8,723 nucleotides of DNA from Candidatus Sumerlaeota bacterium (lineage in GTDB: Bacteria; CG03; SLGR01), in assembly GCA_007136585.1 (NCBI GenBank), contig SLGR01000073.1, positions 1 to 8,723 on the forward strand. Reading direction: 5' to 3'. Numbering within the stretch: the stretch's first letter is position 1; each line of letters opens with the position of its first letter. A program made the translations under genes and the position numbers. Positions 1 through 8,114 of the stretch are shown piece after piece. Below the pieces are notes generated by a model that saw nothing but the letters and a program-made list of their open reading frames with translations, made no database searches and was not told the DNA's origin.

Positions 1-211
1 CTGTATCGTCAGATACAGTAAAAATATCTTTTTTCTTTTTTATTACCCGGTGCAGATAAAGTCCGCCCCGGTCCCTGTAGCATATCAGATCCCCGGTCCT
101 GTATTTAAAAGTTTTTCTTATAAAAAGAACACTGCCGGACCTTATAAAAGGCCGCATACAGCCGCCCTTAACTTTTACCGGGATTATATTGTTCCTGAAA
201 CAAGTATCCAT
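1..211 (-). CDS. S24/S26 (LexA/signal-peptidase fold) peptidase-like protein, partial (N-terminal 70 residues)
   Basis: The frame opens at ATG 211, just after an in-frame TAA, and runs off the window at position 1. Visible motifs are VKGGCMRPFIRSGS (residues 14-27), RTGDLICYRD (38-47) and GLYLHRVI (50-57), followed by FTVSDD. These align with the GxSMxPxixxGD, GDixxy, HRV and GDn blocks of small S24/S26 proteins found next to HprK-like and PqqD-like genes. Two departures stand out. Cys18 occupies the position of the usual serine before Met, and SDD replaces the usual GD. His54 matches the His used instead of Lys by archaeal/eukaryotic-type signal peptidases. A peptidase role (cutting a leader or an envelope protein) is plausible but unproven, since the nucleophile differs and most of the C-terminus is outside. 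GGAGG (230-234) is 18 bases from the ATG, unusually far, so the start is less certain than the motifs. Confidence 0.7.
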   Translation of the reverse strand, partial: MDTCFRNNIIPVKVKGGCMRPFIRSGSVLFIRKTFKYRTGDLICYRDRGGLYLHRVIKKKKDIFTVSDDT

Positions 212-2864: not shown

Positions 2865-3020
2865 TTATGACCTCATAGGAAGTATGCCGCAGTTAAAATC
2901 CCAGATAGGAAGCCCCGCGCTGCATTTTCCGCAGGATAGAGCCGCCGTCTCGGTTATCTTCTCGGAGCTTACAGAGGGTTTCGTGTACTTTTTTTTCTTT
3001 CTGTTTTTCTTCTCCGCCAT
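2865..3020 (-). CDS. 51-residue cysteine-containing peptide, probable RiPP precursor
   Basis: ATG at 3020 with AAGGGG (3027-3032) six bases upstream, ending in TAA at 2865-2867. The N-terminal part is lysine-rich (residues 4-11) and leads into KYTKPSVSSEKITETAAL (residues 11-28). That has the layout of a leader, with a YxxP motif at Y12/P15 and a Thr at 25, as in leaders bound by PqqD-type recognition elements. The C-terminal part holds C30, C33 and C44 together with W40, D41 and N43, and ends PMRS. There is no signal peptide or membrane segment. It lies 34 bases after the radical SAM gene and 45 bases before the surface protein. Its position beside a PqqD-like protein, a radical SAM/SPASM enzyme and an HprK-like protein makes it the natural substrate. 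It is shorter than usual gene-calling cutoffs. The product, cleavage site and crosslinks are unknown. Confidence 0.78.
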   Translation of the reverse strand: MAEKKNRKKKKYTKPSVSSEKITETAALSCGKCSAGLPIWDFNCGILPMRS

Positions 3021-3035
3021 AAACTACCCCTTAAT

Positions 3036-3054
3036 AATAATAGTTACTATTATT
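3036..3054. promoter_or_regulatory. AT-rich palindrome between the radical SAM gene and the peptide gene
   Basis: AATAATAGT and ACTATTATT form a perfect 9-base inverted repeat around a single central T, immediately after the radical SAM stop and just before the ribosome binding site of the 51-residue peptide. It could be an operator for separate control of the peptide, or a weak hairpin (8-bp stem, TTA loop) protecting or separating the mRNA segment. It is pure low-GC sequence, so chance is a real alternative. Confidence 0.35.
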
Positions 3055-4089
3055 TTAACCTAAATCCTCTTTTATTTCAATACCCTGAGATGAGACTGTG
3101 TTTACAGGAACCCTAAGACGGTCAGCGGTATCGGAGGCGGCCCCGCAGAAAAAATCCGGTCCTTCAGCCGAGGCTATACCGGGGCAGATTCCGCAGTAAC
3201 TGAGAACCCCGCAGGAGAAACAATTCTCAAGGTGCGAATAATCCGGTTTCATCACTTCCCATATCCTCTCAAACCCTTCTTCCGCCGCTCTCCCGCACGG
3301 AACCCTCCAGGATAAGCAGGGAAAAACATTTCCACAGGAGTCAACCGCAGCCATATTAACCCCCGCCCCGCACTCCAGTTTCTCCCTGGGCCGGAAATCC
3401 CCTGTATCAAATATCCCGCTCTCAAAGACAGTCTCGCATACCTTCTCCCTGGATATTCTGCGGGAAATTATCCGGTCTTTATTTTTCCTGTAACAGGGAG
3501 ATATCACAGGGTCAATCTTATGGGTAAGGTTTCTTTTCCGCGCCCACCGGCGGAGCTTATCCAGGTCATTGTAATTCTCATCCATAAGCGGGGTTTTTAT
3601 AACAGGGCTTATACCGTTTAAAAGAAGGTTATCAATGCCGAGGGATGTTTTCTCAAAAGACCCCGGGACCCCCGTGATAAGGTCGTGCCTCTCAGGGTCG
3701 GAGGAATAGACCGAGATATGGACCGAAAACAGGGAAAACTCCGCCAGGCGGGCACCCTTCTCCCTGTTTATCCCGGTCCCGGAGGTAAAGAGCATTACGG
3801 CAAACCCCCTGAGCTTTGCTTCTTCAAGTATCTCCCAGAGATCGCTCCTGAGAAGGGGCTCCCCCCCGGTAAGTATCAGAAAAAGGGTCCCGGCGGTTTC
3901 CAGGGACTCAAGGAGTTCTTTTACCTGTTCCGCGTTCATCTCTCCGCTCTCCCTTGACGGGGCCCCGCGGTGAAAACAGTGTATACAATTTAGATGGCAC
4001 CGGGAGGTCAGCTCCAGATGCACCGTGAGAGGGACCCGGTTCTCAAAAGAGCATCTTCCAAGACGGGCGACCGGGGAATAAGAGGTCAC
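3055..4089 (-). CDS. Radical SAM/SPASM peptide-modifying enzyme
   Basis: This 344-residue enzyme has the radical SAM cluster motif CHLNCIHC (C31, C35, C38), GGEP at 75-78 for SAM binding, and a C-terminal SPASM domain. SPASM cysteines are C240 in CGAG, C258 after a CX13GX4C spacing, then C290, C293, C299, C302 and C315 in a CX2CX5CX2CX12C run; C252 and C265 are extra. This is enough for two auxiliary iron-sulfur clusters, as in PqqE, AlbA and anSME-like enzymes that modify peptides through a 5'-deoxyadenosyl radical. The first approximately 20 residues do not form a separate PqqD-like domain; that role is taken by the adjacent small gene. The start is GTG at 4089, overlapping the PqqD-like stop (GTGA) with AAGGGG eight bases upstream (4098-4103). 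The reaction could be a thioether, carbon-carbon or other crosslink; the sequence does not decide. Confidence 0.95.
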   Translation of the reverse strand: MTSYSPVARLGRCSFENRVPLTVHLELTSRCHLNCIHCFHRGAPSRESGEMNAEQVKELLESLETAGTLFLILTGGEPLLRSDLWEILEEAKLRGFAVMLFTSGTGINREKGARLAEFSLFSVHISVYSSDPERHDLITGVPGSFEKTSLGIDNLLLNGISPVIKTPLMDENYNDLDKLRRWARKRNLTHKIDPVISPCYRKNKDRIISRRISREKVCETVFESGIFDTGDFRPREKLECGAGVNMAAVDSCGNVFPCLSWRVPCGRAAEEGFERIWEVMKPDYSHLENCFSCGVLSYCGICPGIASAEGPDFFCGAASDTADRLRVPVNTVSSQGIEIKEDLG

Positions 4090-4340
4090 AGGAGTATCCC
4101 CTTCTCTCTTAAATCTTCCGTAAACTCTTCCATATCTCTTTCCGCTTCGCCACGGGATACTTCAAACTCTCCGCAGAGGCCGCGTATGATGGTTTCCGGC
4201 TCGCTCCCCTTCTTAAGCTCCGAGTATATGTAGGTTCCGGTATCGTTAAGCATATGAAGCATCCTGTTTCCAGGGTCAACAATATAATAGCAGCCGTCAA
4301 TGAGCCGGGCGGCCATATCGGGGTTTATACTGAAGCTCAT
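4086..4340 (-). CDS. PqqD-like peptide chaperone (RiPP recognition element)
   Basis: This is an 84-residue, stand-alone PqqD-like protein, the usual length for the family. The pattern fits: DMAARLIDGCYYIVDPGNR gives the first strands, HMLNDTGTYIYSEL (29-42) is the hallmark LN-x-x-G followed by a helix, and a C-terminal winged-helix-like segment ends DLREKGILL. PqqD proteins bind the leader of a ribosomally made precursor and present it to the radical SAM partner. It overlaps the HprK-like gene upstream and the radical SAM gene downstream by 4 bases each, so all three are probably made in fixed proportion. The likely ligand is the 51-residue peptide encoded immediately after the radical SAM gene. 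A shifted 63-residue reading frame inside it is a shadow. Confidence 0.86.
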   Translation of the reverse strand: MSFSINPDMAARLIDGCYYIVDPGNRMLHMLNDTGTYIYSELKKGSEPETIIRGLCGEFEVSRGEAERDMEEFTEDLREKGILL

Positions 4341-5080
4341 ACCCCGGCCAGAGCCCTGCTGTATACCCCCCGCCCCGGAATTAAAAGACTGAGTTCGCGG
4401 GCAATATCCGCAAGGGCGCCGAACCCTTCCGGGCTCGCCGAGTAGAAGAGAGTGTTCCGGAGTATCTCCCGGTAAACCCTCCCCGGTTCGAGATCCCCGT
4501 CAAGGCGGAGCATATTAAACCCCGTTAGCGGGCAGCTCCTGTTCTCAAACTCCCCGGCGAATTCCCCGGAAAAAGGGGTTGAGCAGACCCGCCAGGAACC
4601 CGAGACCTTCCTCAGGGCAGTTATATCATCAGATAAGATATTATCCCTGCCCCTGACAGAGGATGTCTTACCGCTCCCCGAAGGGCCCGTATAGACCTCC
4701 CCTCCAAGAGATGAAGCGTGCATAAGAAGCCCCCCCCGGGGGGGGAGAAATACAGAGTAAGCCGCTCTTAAAACTGAGTCAAGCGCATGTATATCCCTGA
4801 AGACCTCTCCTGATATCTCACCCTGCGATACCGTTATATTCATCCCGCGCCCCTTTAGAGACTCACCGTTATCAAGGCAGGATATCTCCACCTCTTCCGC
4901 GGCCGGAACCTCATCCTCAAGCGTAACCCGCACGGTAAAATCGGGGCTGACGGGGGATGAGAAGAACCCCCTGTATATTCTCTCTATACCCGGAAGGTCC
5001 TTATCAAGGGTTACGCGGCAGCAGACCCCGGCTATATCAATAGAAAAATCCGGTCCCCGTTCCAGGGAAGAAAGACTCAA
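4337..5080 (-). CDS. HprK-like (HPr kinase-related) protein of a PqqD/radical SAM cassette
   Basis: This 247-residue protein has the core of the HPr kinase/PEP-carboxykinase fold: a histidine in GLLMHASS (118-124), a P-loop GPSGSGKT (132-139), LSDD (149-152) and a later STPFSGEF (167-174). It lacks the N-terminal domain of true HprK and is nowhere near an HPr gene. It therefore resembles the HprK-related kinases found beside PqqD-like chaperones, including exosortase neighbourhoods and the kinases that tailor some lasso peptides. A role phosphorylating a peptide or a pathway component is inference. The start is TTG at 5080: the codon just upstream in frame is a stop, and GGGGAGGGG (5085-5093) lies at ideal spacing. 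The first 4 bases overlap the HD-GYP stop (TTGA), and the last 4 overlap the PqqD-like gene (ATGA). A C8G8 run at 4730-4745 encodes PPRGG just before the histidine. Confidence 0.85.
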   Translation of the reverse strand: MSLSSLERGPDFSIDIAGVCCRVTLDKDLPGIERIYRGFFSSPVSPDFTVRVTLEDEVPAAEEVEISCLDNGESLKGRGMNITVSQGEISGEVFRDIHALDSVLRAAYSVFLPPRGGLLMHASSLGGEVYTGPSGSGKTSSVRGRDNILSDDITALRKVSGSWRVCSTPFSGEFAGEFENRSCPLTGFNMLRLDGDLEPGRVYREILRNTLFYSASPEGFGALADIARELSLLIPGRGVYSRALAGV

Positions 5081-6108
5081 TCATCCCCTCCCCGGGAGAT
5101 TTTTTCCGGGATACTCTCTATGGTAAGAAGTTTTTCCCTTGAAAGGTCTATTATCTCGGGTTCTTCTCCGGAAGGCATATCCTCTATGATCTCAACCGAG
5201 GGCGAGGTCGGAGACTCCGGCCTGACCTCCACAACCCTGGCGGAGCGACCGTCGTCAAGGTTTACTATAGAACCCCTGGGGTAGAGGGTAAGCGTATCAA
5301 CCAGGACACGGACAACCCCGGCTGAGAACCCCCTGTCTCGTTCCGCGATCACCATTTCCATAGCCCTGGCCGGGTTGTAAGCCCCGCGCCAGGGGCGTTT
5401 ATGCGTCAGGGCTTCATATACATCGCAGACGGATATTATAGAGGCGAGACGGTTTATCTGATCTTTCTCAAGGTTATCAGGGTACCCGCTGCCGTCAAAC
5501 CTCTCGTGGTGCTGGGAGGCTACAGATATTATATCTTCTGTAAAATTCCTCTCCCGGGACGGGATGCTTTTTATAACCTCAGACGCTTCAGAGGCGTGTT
5601 TCTCAATTATCTTCTTCTCGCTTTTCTGAAGAACCCGCCCGGCAGAAGCTATATCCATATAACCTGCCATCCCCGTATCGTGAAGAAAAGAAGCCAGGGC
5701 AAGGCGCAGAACCTGGTCTTCGTTGAATATCATCCTTGAGACTACAGCAGCCGAGAGCATACAGACGTTCACCGAATGAGCGTAAAGATAGTTACCCGGA
5801 GTGTTCTCGTAAAAATACTCTTCCAGGAACCCGTTCTTACTCTCGGAAGCGGTACTGAAAAGTTTCCTGAGAAACTCAATATCATCCTCTGTAATAATAA
5901 CCCTAGCCGAAGATGCGGCGCTGTCTATCTTCTCCTTGGCCAGGAGCAGGGCCTCGTTATATATATCCTCCAGGCTCTCTTCATCCGAAGATACTTTTAC
6001 GGGTTTCTCCTCTGCGCGCTGATCCTTTTCGGGAAGGGTCTCCTCCACGCCGCGGCAGCGTTTATCCCTGCCCTCAGGGTCCTTATAGGCGTCTGATATC
6101 CTTATCAT
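5077..6108 (-). CDS. HD-GYP domain protein, putative cyclic-di-GMP phosphodiesterase
   Basis: This 343-residue soluble protein has a charged, probably disordered N-terminus (1-60), a helical linker, then an HD-GYP domain from about 105 to 270. Metal-binding and signature residues are present: H111, H143-D144 in LHDTGM, H171, H200-H201 and GSGYP at 206-210, followed by D229 in SVCDVYEALTHKRPWR. A C-terminal extension beginning YPRGSIVNL (277 on) matches the usual tail of the family. HD-GYP proteins hydrolyse cyclic-di-GMP to pGpG or GMP. One departure is visible: the lysine of the usual HDxGK motif is Met147, so activity is likely but not certain. No receiver or membrane sensor domain is present, so the input signal is unclear. 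The ATG has CGGAG eight bases upstream. Its TGA overlaps the TTG start of the HprK-like gene, which suggests translational coupling to the peptide-modification genes. Confidence 0.93.
   Translation of the reverse strand: MIRISDAYKDPEGRDKRCRGVEETLPEKDQRAEEKPVKVSSDEESLEDIYNEALLLAKEKIDSAASSARVIITEDDIEFLRKLFSTASESKNGFLEEYFYENTPGNYLYAHSVNVCMLSAAVVSRMIFNEDQVLRLALASFLHDTGMAGYMDIASAGRVLQKSEKKIIEKHASEASEVIKSIPSRERNFTEDIISVASQHHERFDGSGYPDNLEKDQINRLASIISVCDVYEALTHKRPWRGAYNPARAMEMVIAERDRGFSAGVVRVLVDTLTLYPRGSIVNLDDGRSARVVEVRPESPTSPSVEIIEDMPSGEEPEIIDLSREKLLTIESIPEKISRGGDD
5085..5093 (-). promoter_or_regulatory. Ribosome binding site that fixes the TTG start of the HprK-like gene
   Basis: GGGGAGGGG lies inside the last codons of the HD-GYP gene, with its GGAGG core six bases before TTG at 5080. 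Because the upstream in-frame codon is a stop, this site supports the unusual TTG start over a much later ATG, which would remove the N-terminal third of the protein. Confidence 0.7.
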
Positions 6109-6151: not shown

Positions 6152-6949
6152 TCAGATAAGATCGGTTACCACGTCGGTTACCGTATCCGAGTCAATCTTC
6201 TCCAGTTTTCCCGTGTACCCCGCAAGAAGGCTCAGGTCGCATATTGAGTTTATCCTCCTTGGTATGCCGTTTGAACTCCTGAATACAGTCTCAATCGCCT
6301 CATCGGTAAATATCCCGGATTTACCCCCGGCAACGGAAAGGCGGCAGGAAATATACCTACGGGTATCTTCGTACTCAAGGTTTTCCACAGAAGCCCGGAT
6401 CCCGACCCGCTGGTCAATCTGTTTTATATTGCGTATCTTGTCGGATATCTCGGGTTGTCCGGAAAGGACGAGACTCATAAGAAAATCCCCCTGCGCCTGG
6501 AGGTTTAAAAGCATCCTCAGCTCTTCAAAAACCCCGGGATCATCTATTACGTGGGCCTCGTCTATTATAATAACCGATTTCCTGCCGTCATTGTAATTAT
6601 CTAAAAGGGCTTTTTCAATACCCCGCAGCAACCCGGATTTACCCCCCTCCTCGGAAGCTGAGGTAAGTTTATAGAGAATATGAGAGAGAATCTCCTCCGG
6701 GCTCATCTGGGGGTTTGAAATATAGGCCGTCCTGTACCTTTCCTTCTCCAGGTCAATAGCAAGTTTCTTTAAGAGCAGCGTCTTACCGCATCCGAAAAGC
6801 CCGCTGAAGAGAACAAGCCCAAGGCTCTCTCCTATCCCGTAGACCAGCCTGGAGTAGGCCTCTTCGTGCTGGGGTGAGAGGTACAGGTACCTGGGATCAG
6901 GCGCGTTTCTGAAAGGTTTCTCGGTAAGCCCCCAGTAGGTTTCGTACAT
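6152..6949 (-). CDS. ExeA/GspA-type AAA ATPase (secretion or EPS-locus ATPase)
   Basis: The 265-residue protein opens with YWGLTEKPFRNAPDPRYLYL, close to the hallmark start of ExeA/GspA/MshM-like ATPases and of the ATPase of PEP-CTERM/exosortase exopolysaccharide loci. Walker A is GLFGCGKT (residues 50-57) and Walker B is VIIIDEAH (126-133). A sensor-1-like LSGQPE lies at 162-167, an Arg-finger-like QR at 180-181 and a sensor-2-like GIPRRIN at 228-234, so the ATPase looks complete. It lacks the C-terminal membrane segment and peptidoglycan-binding domain of true ExeA, so it is the short cytoplasmic form. Family members use ATP to drive assembly of envelope machinery; the partner here is unknown. 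Its start is one base after the stop of the coiled-coil gene, and the HD-GYP gene begins 43 bases downstream. Homology to the EPS-locus subfamily is from memory of its N-terminus. Confidence 0.92.
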   Translation of the reverse strand: MYETYWGLTEKPFRNAPDPRYLYLSPQHEEAYSRLVYGIGESLGLVLFSGLFGCGKTLLLKKLAIDLEKERYRTAYISNPQMSPEEILSHILYKLTSASEEGGKSGLLRGIEKALLDNYNDGRKSVIIIDEAHVIDDPGVFEELRMLLNLQAQGDFLMSLVLSGQPEISDKIRNIKQIDQRVGIRASVENLEYEDTRRYISCRLSVAGGKSGIFTDEAIETVFRSSNGIPRRINSICDLSLLAGYTGKLEKIDSDTVTDVVTDLI

Positions 6950-6950
6950 A

Positions 6951-8114
6951 TTATTCCAGCCCCCTGAGCCTCCGCGCCATTCTCATACGCAGCTCTTTAT
7001 CTCCCGGGATACCGCTTTTCTCAGGTTCATCGTGTTCCTCTCTTACGGGTTTCTTTTCATCCCCGGTTTCCCCAAAGAGCCCTAACTCATCTCCGTCGGG
7101 TATGGGCTTATCCTTCTTCACGTCCCGGCGCTCTTCCGCTTTTAAAGATTCCAGTTCAAGCTCCAGGCGGGTTATTTTCCGGACGTACCCGGCCTCCTCA
7201 ACCTCCTGCCGGCGGAGTTTCTCCTCAAGTTCGGATATCCTTTCCCTGAACCTCTCCCTGGCTGCCCTGAGGTTATCCTCCCTCTCGCTTAATTCTTTTT
7301 CCCGCTGCTCCAGGTCTATAAGCCCTGCTCCGGGTTCCGGGTCCCGGTTCTTTTCCGGGGAGGGTAATTTCTCAAGGAGCTCAAGTTTTGTCTCAAGTTC
7401 GGCAACGCGGGCCAGATGCTTTTCCTCCCGCTCCTCAAGGGAGCTGATCCGGGCTTTGAGGTTATCAATCTGCTCCTCGTAATTCCGCCTGGCATCCCTG
7501 AAATCTGAGTTTATCTCTGAGAAGAGCCGGTCTTTCTCTTTTATCTCAGCCTCAAGTTCCTGTATTTTTTTCTGTGACTCCGATTCCCTGTTTAAGGCCT
7601 TCCTGAGGTCTTCATCCCTGCCGGAGCTGCTATCGGTGAGTTTAAGGTTAAGTACTTTGATCCTGTTCTCATACTCTGAGCGAAGTTTCCGCAGGTTTCT
7701 CCTTTCCTGGAGAATAAGGTTCTCTTTCTCGTCAAGCTCTTTCTTAAGCTCGGCGACCATACCGGGGCTGGAGGAACTAAGGGCCTTCAAACGCTCGTTT
7801 AGCATCTCAACCTTTGTTTCAAGGGCAGCCCGGCGGGATTTATGCTCCTCTTTGAGTTTTTCAAACTCCGCTGCGTCAACCATATTCTCCGGGTACCCTG
7901 TCCTGTCACGGAGCATCTCTCTGAGTTTATCATTCTTCTCTTCAAGAAGACGGAGCTTTTTCTCATAATCACTGATGAGCTCGGTCTGTTTCTTCTTCAG
8001 ATAAGCGACCTCCTGCTGGCGCCGCTCACTCTCGGCCTTGAGTTTTATTGAAGACTCCTTTATAAGCCTTTCCTGAAACTTCTCAACCTCGTTTAAAATA
8101 TCATCTCTTACCAT
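6951..8114 (-). CDS. Long cytoplasmic coiled-coil protein of unknown function
   Basis: This 387-residue protein is dominated by Glu, Lys, Arg and Leu in heptad-like spacing. Coiled-coil stretches run roughly from residues 5-70, 82-255 and 275-332, broken by helix-breaking patches around TGYPEN (72-77), SSSSPG (about 115) and a Pro/Gly-rich linker near 258-272. A charged, probably disordered segment follows, and the protein ends in a short basic tail, RMRMARRLRGLE. No signal peptide or membrane segment is visible, so it should be cytoplasmic. The ATG is preceded by AAGGA with a 9-base spacer. Its stop is separated from the ATPase start by a single base, so the two are almost certainly cotranslated and may act together, for example as a scaffold or tether for the ATPase. 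Similarity to SMC or myosin-like proteins would be compositional. I do not recognise a named family. Confidence 0.85.
   Translation of the reverse strand: MVRDDILNEVEKFQERLIKESSIKLKAESERRQQEVAYLKKKQTELISDYEKKLRLLEEKNDKLREMLRDRTGYPENMVDAAEFEKLKEEHKSRRAALETKVEMLNERLKALSSSSPGMVAELKKELDEKENLILQERRNLRKLRSEYENRIKVLNLKLTDSSSGRDEDLRKALNRESESQKKIQELEAEIKEKDRLFSEINSDFRDARRNYEEQIDNLKARISSLEEREEKHLARVAELETKLELLEKLPSPEKNRDPEPGAGLIDLEQREKELSEREDNLRAARERFRERISELEEKLRRQEVEEAGYVRKITRLELELESLKAEERRDVKKDKPIPDGDELGLFGETGDEKKPVREEHDEPEKSGIPGDKELRMRMARRLRGLE

Follow-up and report, generated by a model that had tools for sequence, protein, structure and literature searches.

A putative radical SAM peptide cassette with an HprK-like kinase and precursors that mostly end in serine

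Introduction

Several described peptide systems share parts with the locus reported here. Among the closest are the linear polyphosphorylated peptides (LPP) of Bacillota (Popov et al. 2026, PMC13381572), in which phosphorylation of the precursor by an HprK-like kinase goes together with a cut after F-E-T, made by a signal-peptidase-like enzyme with the aid of a RiPP recognition element, RRE (PMC13381572). In kinase-bearing lasso peptides, the C-terminal Ser is phosphorylated, with the exception of BsfA, which ends in Asp and uses Ser3; the lasso kinase BsfK is accelerated by the B1 RRE (PMC10368454). NTP transferases are also carried by both LPP and paeninodin clusters, and the biological role of both kinds of peptide is stated as unknown (PMC13381572).

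Two further systems deserve mention. The SynChlorMet cassette (NCBIfam TIGR04248-04251), known from bioinformatics only, likewise brings HprK-like, PqqD-like, and radical SAM/SPASM genes together. The SkfB and CteB sactipeptide maturases are the nearest radical SAM/SPASM enzymes by sequence and also act on Cys-containing substrates; neither system is known to use an HprK-like kinase. A search of mostly open-access literature for the combination of genes described here, and for SynChlorMet, found no report, which is weak evidence.

The window that we analyzed is an entire contig of 8723 bases from a Candidatus Sumerlaeota genome of 1.88 Mb in 257 contigs. It carries a small peptide gene that a first-pass annotation had proposed as the substrate of a radical SAM cassette.

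The precursor gene

The frame at 2865-3020 on the minus strand comprises 51 codons, begins with ATG, and translates as MAEKKNRKKKKYTKPSVSSEKITETAALSCGKCSAGLPIWDFNCGILPMRS. A ribosome site, AAGGGG, stands 6 nt upstream of the ATG, which itself lies 34 nt downstream of the radical SAM stop codon on the same strand; the HD-GYP, HprK-like, PqqD-like, and radical SAM genes run along one strand with consecutive 4-nt overlaps. The open frame, its Shine-Dalgarno site, homologues in three genomes, and a dN/dS of ~0.15 against the closest of them show that it is a real gene. At 51 residues the peptide exceeds the usual minimum length of common gene finders.

The predicted leader (residues 1-25; 2946..3020, minus strand) is conserved across the family and holds the RRE motif Y12-x-x-P15-x-V17. 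It ends in I-T-E-T, where relatives have F-E-T, and by analogy with the F-3 E-2 T-1 site of LPP (PMC13381572) cleavage is predicted between E24-T25 and A26. This would release a core of residues 26-51 (2868..2945, minus strand) with C30, C33, and C44 and a C-terminal S51 in a C-x6-S tail, as predicted from alignment and C-terminal statistics. The first-pass annotation had correctly described the 51-codon frame with its Shine-Dalgarno site, the position after the PqqD-like and radical SAM genes, the YxxP segment (Y12-P15), and the three cysteines. The residues it named all stand; its list left out Ser51, the most informative feature of the peptide.

Directly upstream of the gene, at 3052-3080 on the minus strand, is a promoter-like element, TTGAAA-17-TAAAAT, a consensus match only, that might give the peptide gene its own transcript. 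An AU-rich hairpin upstream of the gene scored no better than shuffled sequences.

Enzymes of the cassette

The radical SAM/SPASM enzyme (3055..4089, minus strand), the predicted Cys modifier, matches Pfam Radical_SAM with E 1.2e-21 and SPASM below threshold with E 0.02. The nearest solved structures to its family profile are SkfB, PqqE, and those of CteB type, and the CxxxCxxC site and a C-terminal Cys are invariant in the family. It also matches the mycofactocin maturase model, far below curated cut-offs. An AlphaFold2 model built from four rows gave a fair barrel, with pLDDT <50 over the SPASM part.

Next to it lies the PqqD-like discrete RiPP recognition element (4086..4340, minus strand; Pfam PqqD, E 1.3e-14), whose nearest PDB structures are the lasso-peptide B1 recognition proteins TfuB1 and TbiB1. 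Discrete RREs of this kind bind YxxP leaders (PMC13381572).

The HprK-like kinase (4337..5080, minus strand, with a TTG start as listed), for which we predict phosphorylation of the C-terminal Ser, carries H121, G132-P-S-G-S-G137-K138-T, and D151-D152, matching the residues H-G-G-G-K-S-D-D named for lasso kinases (PMC10368454). Across its family His121, Gly132, Gly137, and Lys138 are kept, and Asp151 almost always. The window protein matched no Pfam or NCBIfam model, ScmC included; among family members, 13/17 match ScmC, 9 match HprK-related kinase A, and 6 match HprK-related kinase B. AlphaFold2, run on three rows, returned a pLDDT of 36 for the window protein, which is unusable.

At the contig end, and cut by it, is an archaeal-type signal peptidase-like gene (2..211, minus strand; NCBIfam sigpep_I_arch, E 8.8e-8), the predicted leader peptidase. 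Proteins of this kind match sigpep_I_arch and PDB signal peptidases, and relatives occur in other cassettes. At the nucleophile position of the G-x-S-M-x-P block, all eight aligned relatives have Ser, and the catalytic Ser is kept in L046, L047, L093, and L097; the window has TGT, Cys, at this position. The Cys could serve as the nucleophile, or it could reflect a lost function or a mistake in the assembly. In L047 (10141-13680), a signal-peptidase-like domain is apparently fused to a giant surface protein; the two are separate in L046. As the fusion had contaminated the signal peptidase (S24) model, this was rebuilt from A7 for the kinase-side loci.

Closest relatives

The closest relative of the window peptide, in a genome of the same order (G003), shows 66-69% identity (E = 3.5e-18). 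The two genes differ at 8 first, 10 second, and 21 third positions of their codons, and so mostly at the third; dN is 0.23 and dS 1.47. In G003, the peptide gene comes after PqqD, radical SAM, Wza-like, and Wzc-like genes. An HprK-like gene sits at the edge of a different G003 contig; no overlap between the two contigs was found, and they likely join at this gene.

Further relatives occur in Endomicrobiales Zod_Metabat.202 (L046) and Elusimicrobia RIFOXYA2_FULL_50_26 (L047), both with the order HD-GYP, HprK, PqqD, radical SAM, peptide, and signal peptidase. The first-pass annotation had named a lack of homologues that keep Y, P, and Cys at related loci as grounds against its claim; such homologues were found, and the claim survived this test. 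All four precursors keep Y12, P15, SEKIxETAAL, C30-G-K-C33, P38, C44, and S51; the SEKIxETAALxCGKC block is common to these Elusimicrobia-type precursors, in loci with PqqD-radical SAM genes. Within the window's own phylum the distribution is patchy, with the PqqD gene in 2/16 genomes; a third genome, G005, has, at the edge of a contig, the ATPase and HD-GYP genes and a piece of HprK.

A search of viral contigs returned no relative. Some matches were rejected: L048 (Pirellula) as a chance similarity within a large frame, and weak matches of the single peptide in G008 and G012, from the same phylum, as lying inside or against conserved large genes.

The wider family and its C-terminal residue

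To go further, a profile of the four peptides (A2) was followed by a profile of leaders only (A3, 18 rows). The latter matched 12/386 bacterial genomes from many families, mostly beside radical SAM, PqqD, and HprK genes. These precursors share the leader YxxPx[IV]...ExxAL[AS]C; their cores differ greatly in both length and sequence and cannot be aligned between lineages. Pfam and NCBIfam contain no model that fits the window precursor and no convincing one for its relatives. The peptide family is widespread and, it seems, undescribed.

It is the end of these peptides that is most telling. Ser closes 33 of the 36 precursors found with the leader profile, Thr 2, and Asp 1; the background rate of a C-terminal Ser in the same loci is 5% among long frames and 12% among small ones. 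Profile A3 has no C-terminal positions, and the 18/36 precursors that helped to build it did so via their leaders alone; A2 did include the terminal Ser, and most of its distant matches stop short of that position. Ser forms the majority in 9/10 lineage groups. Because these groups are internally related, and the counts therefore not independent events, a plain binomial figure would overstate the evidence.

The distance from the last Cys to the end is similarly constrained: 7 residues in 16 cases, 5 in 11, 6 in 2, 8 in 1, 13 in 5, and 18 in 1, the usual tails being C-x4-S or C-x6-S. A distance of 5-8 is seen in 30/36 precursors, compared with an average of 7.3/36 and a maximum of 16 in shuffled cores. 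Exceptions to the terminal Ser/Thr are L095 (Asp) and L198 (Gly), L095 being the one clear exception with HprK adjacent among the leader-profile matches.

Several f154 precursors are situated away from any radical SAM gene. In genome G118 (L086-L091, L158), ~10 paralogous precursors, single or in tandem, are scattered away from the genome's HprK-PqqD-radical SAM cassette, and some adjoin proteins with PQQ-propeller-like repeats.

The same question can be approached from the kinase. A profile of the HprK-like proteins matched in 62/386 genomes, and 27/40 fetched loci contained radical SAM and PqqD genes. Selection of small frames followed a fixed rule (same strand, a distance of up to 200 bases, [KR]...[YWF]xxPx[hydrophobic], and a later Cys), and 19 frames with the same motif elsewhere served as controls. 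Ser or Thr ends 13/16 of the selected peptides versus 4/19 of the controls (Fisher p 0.0005), and an end of the form C-x4..6-[ST] is found in 12/16 versus 1/19; the L203 peptide was left out of these counts, the rule that selected it having demanded the tail. Many of the selected peptides have a second type of leader (...EEAVLxxCK...) and end in -GS or -GT. Two HprK loci with at least two radical SAM matches (L209 and L215) contain precursors of another type, built from Cys/Gly/Ser-rich repeats.

Genomic context

Upstream of the kinase gene are an HD-GYP protein (5077..6108, minus strand; Pfam HD_5) and an ATPase of the XrtA/PEP-CTERM-associated type (6152..6949, minus strand; TIGR03015, 205 bits against a cut-off of 324.5), both recurrent neighbors in exopolysaccharide contexts. 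HD-GYP also stands beside the cassette in L046, L047, L097, L189, and L200, and the ATPase is present in L097, L153, L189, and L200. The window HD-GYP keeps HD and HHExxDGxGYP; the catalytic motifs of the L046 copy (6351-7475) are apparently degenerate.

In the window, G003, G100 (L097), G165 (L092, L153), and G299 (L200), exopolysaccharide-type genes are found close to the cassette or its precursor. LPP loci are likewise located in capsule loci (PMC13381572). It is therefore likely that the peptide acts on the cell surface or within the matrix. An NTP_transf_5 gene was recognized by Pfam in L093, with related genes in L038, L145, and L190, which suggests, again from the described clusters, that in some relatives the phosphate may be built upon.

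The window also encodes, at 312-2819 on the minus strand, an 835-aa secreted protein with DUF285/PARCEL repeats and two long internal repeats, whose C-terminus resembles a T9SS sorting tail (21.9 bits against a cut-off of 23). A secreted surface protein beside the precursor was considered as a constant feature and rejected, as on checking it was not general. In L097 (1306-5349), a C25 peptidase/PorU-like T9SS sortase is directly upstream of the radical SAM-peptide-HprK cassette, in an exopolysaccharide locus.

How the locus compares with described systems

With LPP the window shares a discrete RRE, an HprK-like kinase with its catalytic residues in place, a YxxP leader with an (F/I)xET-like end, and a polysaccharide locus. 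LPP loci also have an archaeal-type signal peptidase; its candidate counterpart in the window is cut short and has Cys at the nucleophile position. There are differences as well. The LPP description covers Bacillota only and includes no radical SAM enzyme, whereas the window family has one and belongs to other phyla. Of the LPP leader YxxPxVLxHQxIxFETxxS, the window has Y, P, V, I, E, and T, without L, H, Q, and F, while several relatives do carry FET. The LPP acceptor is Ser3 of the core; the predicted window core starts AALS, with Leu at position 3, and offers several Cys and a C-terminal Ser instead. Finally, the 8.7-kb window contig contains no NTP transferase or MsbA-like exporter.

Paeninodin-like lasso systems resemble the window in their kinase, with the same residues, in an RRE to which the window's is closest (the B1 proteins), and in the C-terminal Ser found in most kinase-modified lasso precursors. 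However, the window cassette has a radical SAM enzyme, and no gene for a macrolactam synthetase (the lasso cyclase) or a B2 peptidase was found within the window. As for SynChlorMet, there is one radical SAM enzyme here rather than ScmE plus ScmF, and the models fall below their curated cut-offs (ScmE 71 vs 400 bits, ScmF 67 vs 400, and ScmD 12 vs 100). We rate the family as related to the kinase/signal-peptidase RiPPs, with a radical SAM enzyme, Cys in the peptide, and Ser at its C-terminus.

Proposed pathway and alternatives

Like other RiPP precursors, the peptide combines a conserved leader and a variable core with an adjacent RRE and modifying enzyme. Its proposed status as the substrate of the radical SAM cassette gains support from the leader and cassette kept in relatives, and we infer that the neighboring enzymes very probably modify it. 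Peptide, C-terminal Ser, HprK-like gene, and signal-peptidase-like gene are probably parts of one system, a link that the first-pass annotation had not drawn. On balance we favor, as reasonably probable, a RiPP precursor that undergoes Cys modification by the radical SAM enzyme, phosphorylation of the C-terminal Ser, and removal of the leader, to give a surface or matrix product.

The PqqD-like protein would bind the Y12xxPxV leader, and the radical SAM/SPASM enzyme would modify the Cys-bearing core, thioether links from C30/C33/C44 being most likely. The HprK-like kinase, aided by the PqqD-like protein, would phosphorylate Ser51, and the archaeal-type signal peptidase would cut off the leader, most likely after E24-T25, to leave a 26-residue core. 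The peptide would be produced beside exopolysaccharide/envelope genes and probably act on the cell surface or within the matrix. The sequences establish the gene and its conservation, the cassette, an almost universal Ser or Thr end, and the active-site residues of the kinase; the chemistry of each step, their succession, and the role are inferred. That the kinase phosphorylates the last residue is suggested by the fact that family members almost all end in Ser or Thr. A reading with RRE binding, radical SAM modification, terminal phosphorylation, and cleavage is the most economical one in view of the ET-like leader end, Leu3 of the core, the C-terminal Ser, and L095, which ends in Asp like BsfA. 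Counting against C-terminal phosphorylation, the acceptor in LPP and BsfA is Ser3 of the core, a position predicted to be Leu here. The cassette evidence should be read with a sub-threshold SPASM match and an incomplete window signal peptidase with Cys at the nucleophile position in mind.

The alternative that survives best, although we consider it unlikely, is a plain radical SAM peptide of the sactipeptide/ranthipeptide type, for example a bacteriocin, with an HprK-like protein that does not phosphorylate the C-terminal Ser and may instead phosphorylate another residue or serve as an ATP-dependent helper. The radical SAM enzyme is nearest to SkfB and CteB-type structures, the core bears Cys, LppK and BsfK phosphorylate Ser3, and L095 shares the Asp end of BsfA. 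Against this, the C-terminal Ser/Thr is conserved although the cores are otherwise unalignable, and the catalytic residues of the HprK-like protein are kept.

The strikingly fixed spacing of 5 or 7 residues from the last Cys to the C-terminus in most precursors raises another option, which we regard as doubtful: phosphorylation of the C-terminal Ser/Thr would lead to a link with the last Cys. This link (C-x4-S or C-x6-S) would form either through loss of the phosphate and addition of the thiol or through the radical SAM enzyme. No lyase gene was recognized in the cassettes, however, and phosphorylated lasso peptides retain their C-terminal phospho-Ser (PMC10368454).

It is very improbable that the peptide is largely destroyed to yield a small PQQ- or mycofactocin-like redox cofactor, as PqqD plus radical SAM/SPASM and the matches to PqqE and the mycofactocin maturase model might hint, for scores are far below the curated cut-offs for these families, cores vary widely between lineages, and neither a conserved C-terminal Ser nor a kinase would be needed. 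Just as implausible is a radical SAM enzyme acting on another protein, with the small frame not its substrate: two exopolysaccharide genes separate enzyme and peptide in G003 and some f154 precursors are far from a radical SAM gene, but leader and tail are conserved beside radical SAM, PqqD, and HprK in many lineages.

Beyond the favored pathway, we put forward a broader and decidedly tentative proposal, rather unlikely as a whole: a RiPP class across phyla that couples radical SAM chemistry on Cys with C-terminal Ser/Thr phosphorylation, in which the phosphate would join the peptide to another partner (a nucleotidyl or sugar group, the exopolysaccharide, or the last Cys, as a ring) and the product would be matrix-bound rather than a free toxin or cofactor.

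Conclusions

These findings point to a large RiPP family that Pfam and NCBIfam leave unannotated. Its members can be found by a simple rule: a YxxP leader, AL-x-C, a terminal C-x4/6-[ST], and adjacent HprK, PqqD, and radical SAM genes. The favored pathway makes a direct prediction of +80 Da on the last residue plus a radical SAM mass shift. The family would tie radical SAM peptides to the kinase/signal-peptidase peptides that were described recently and also, in several lineages, to exopolysaccharide loci.
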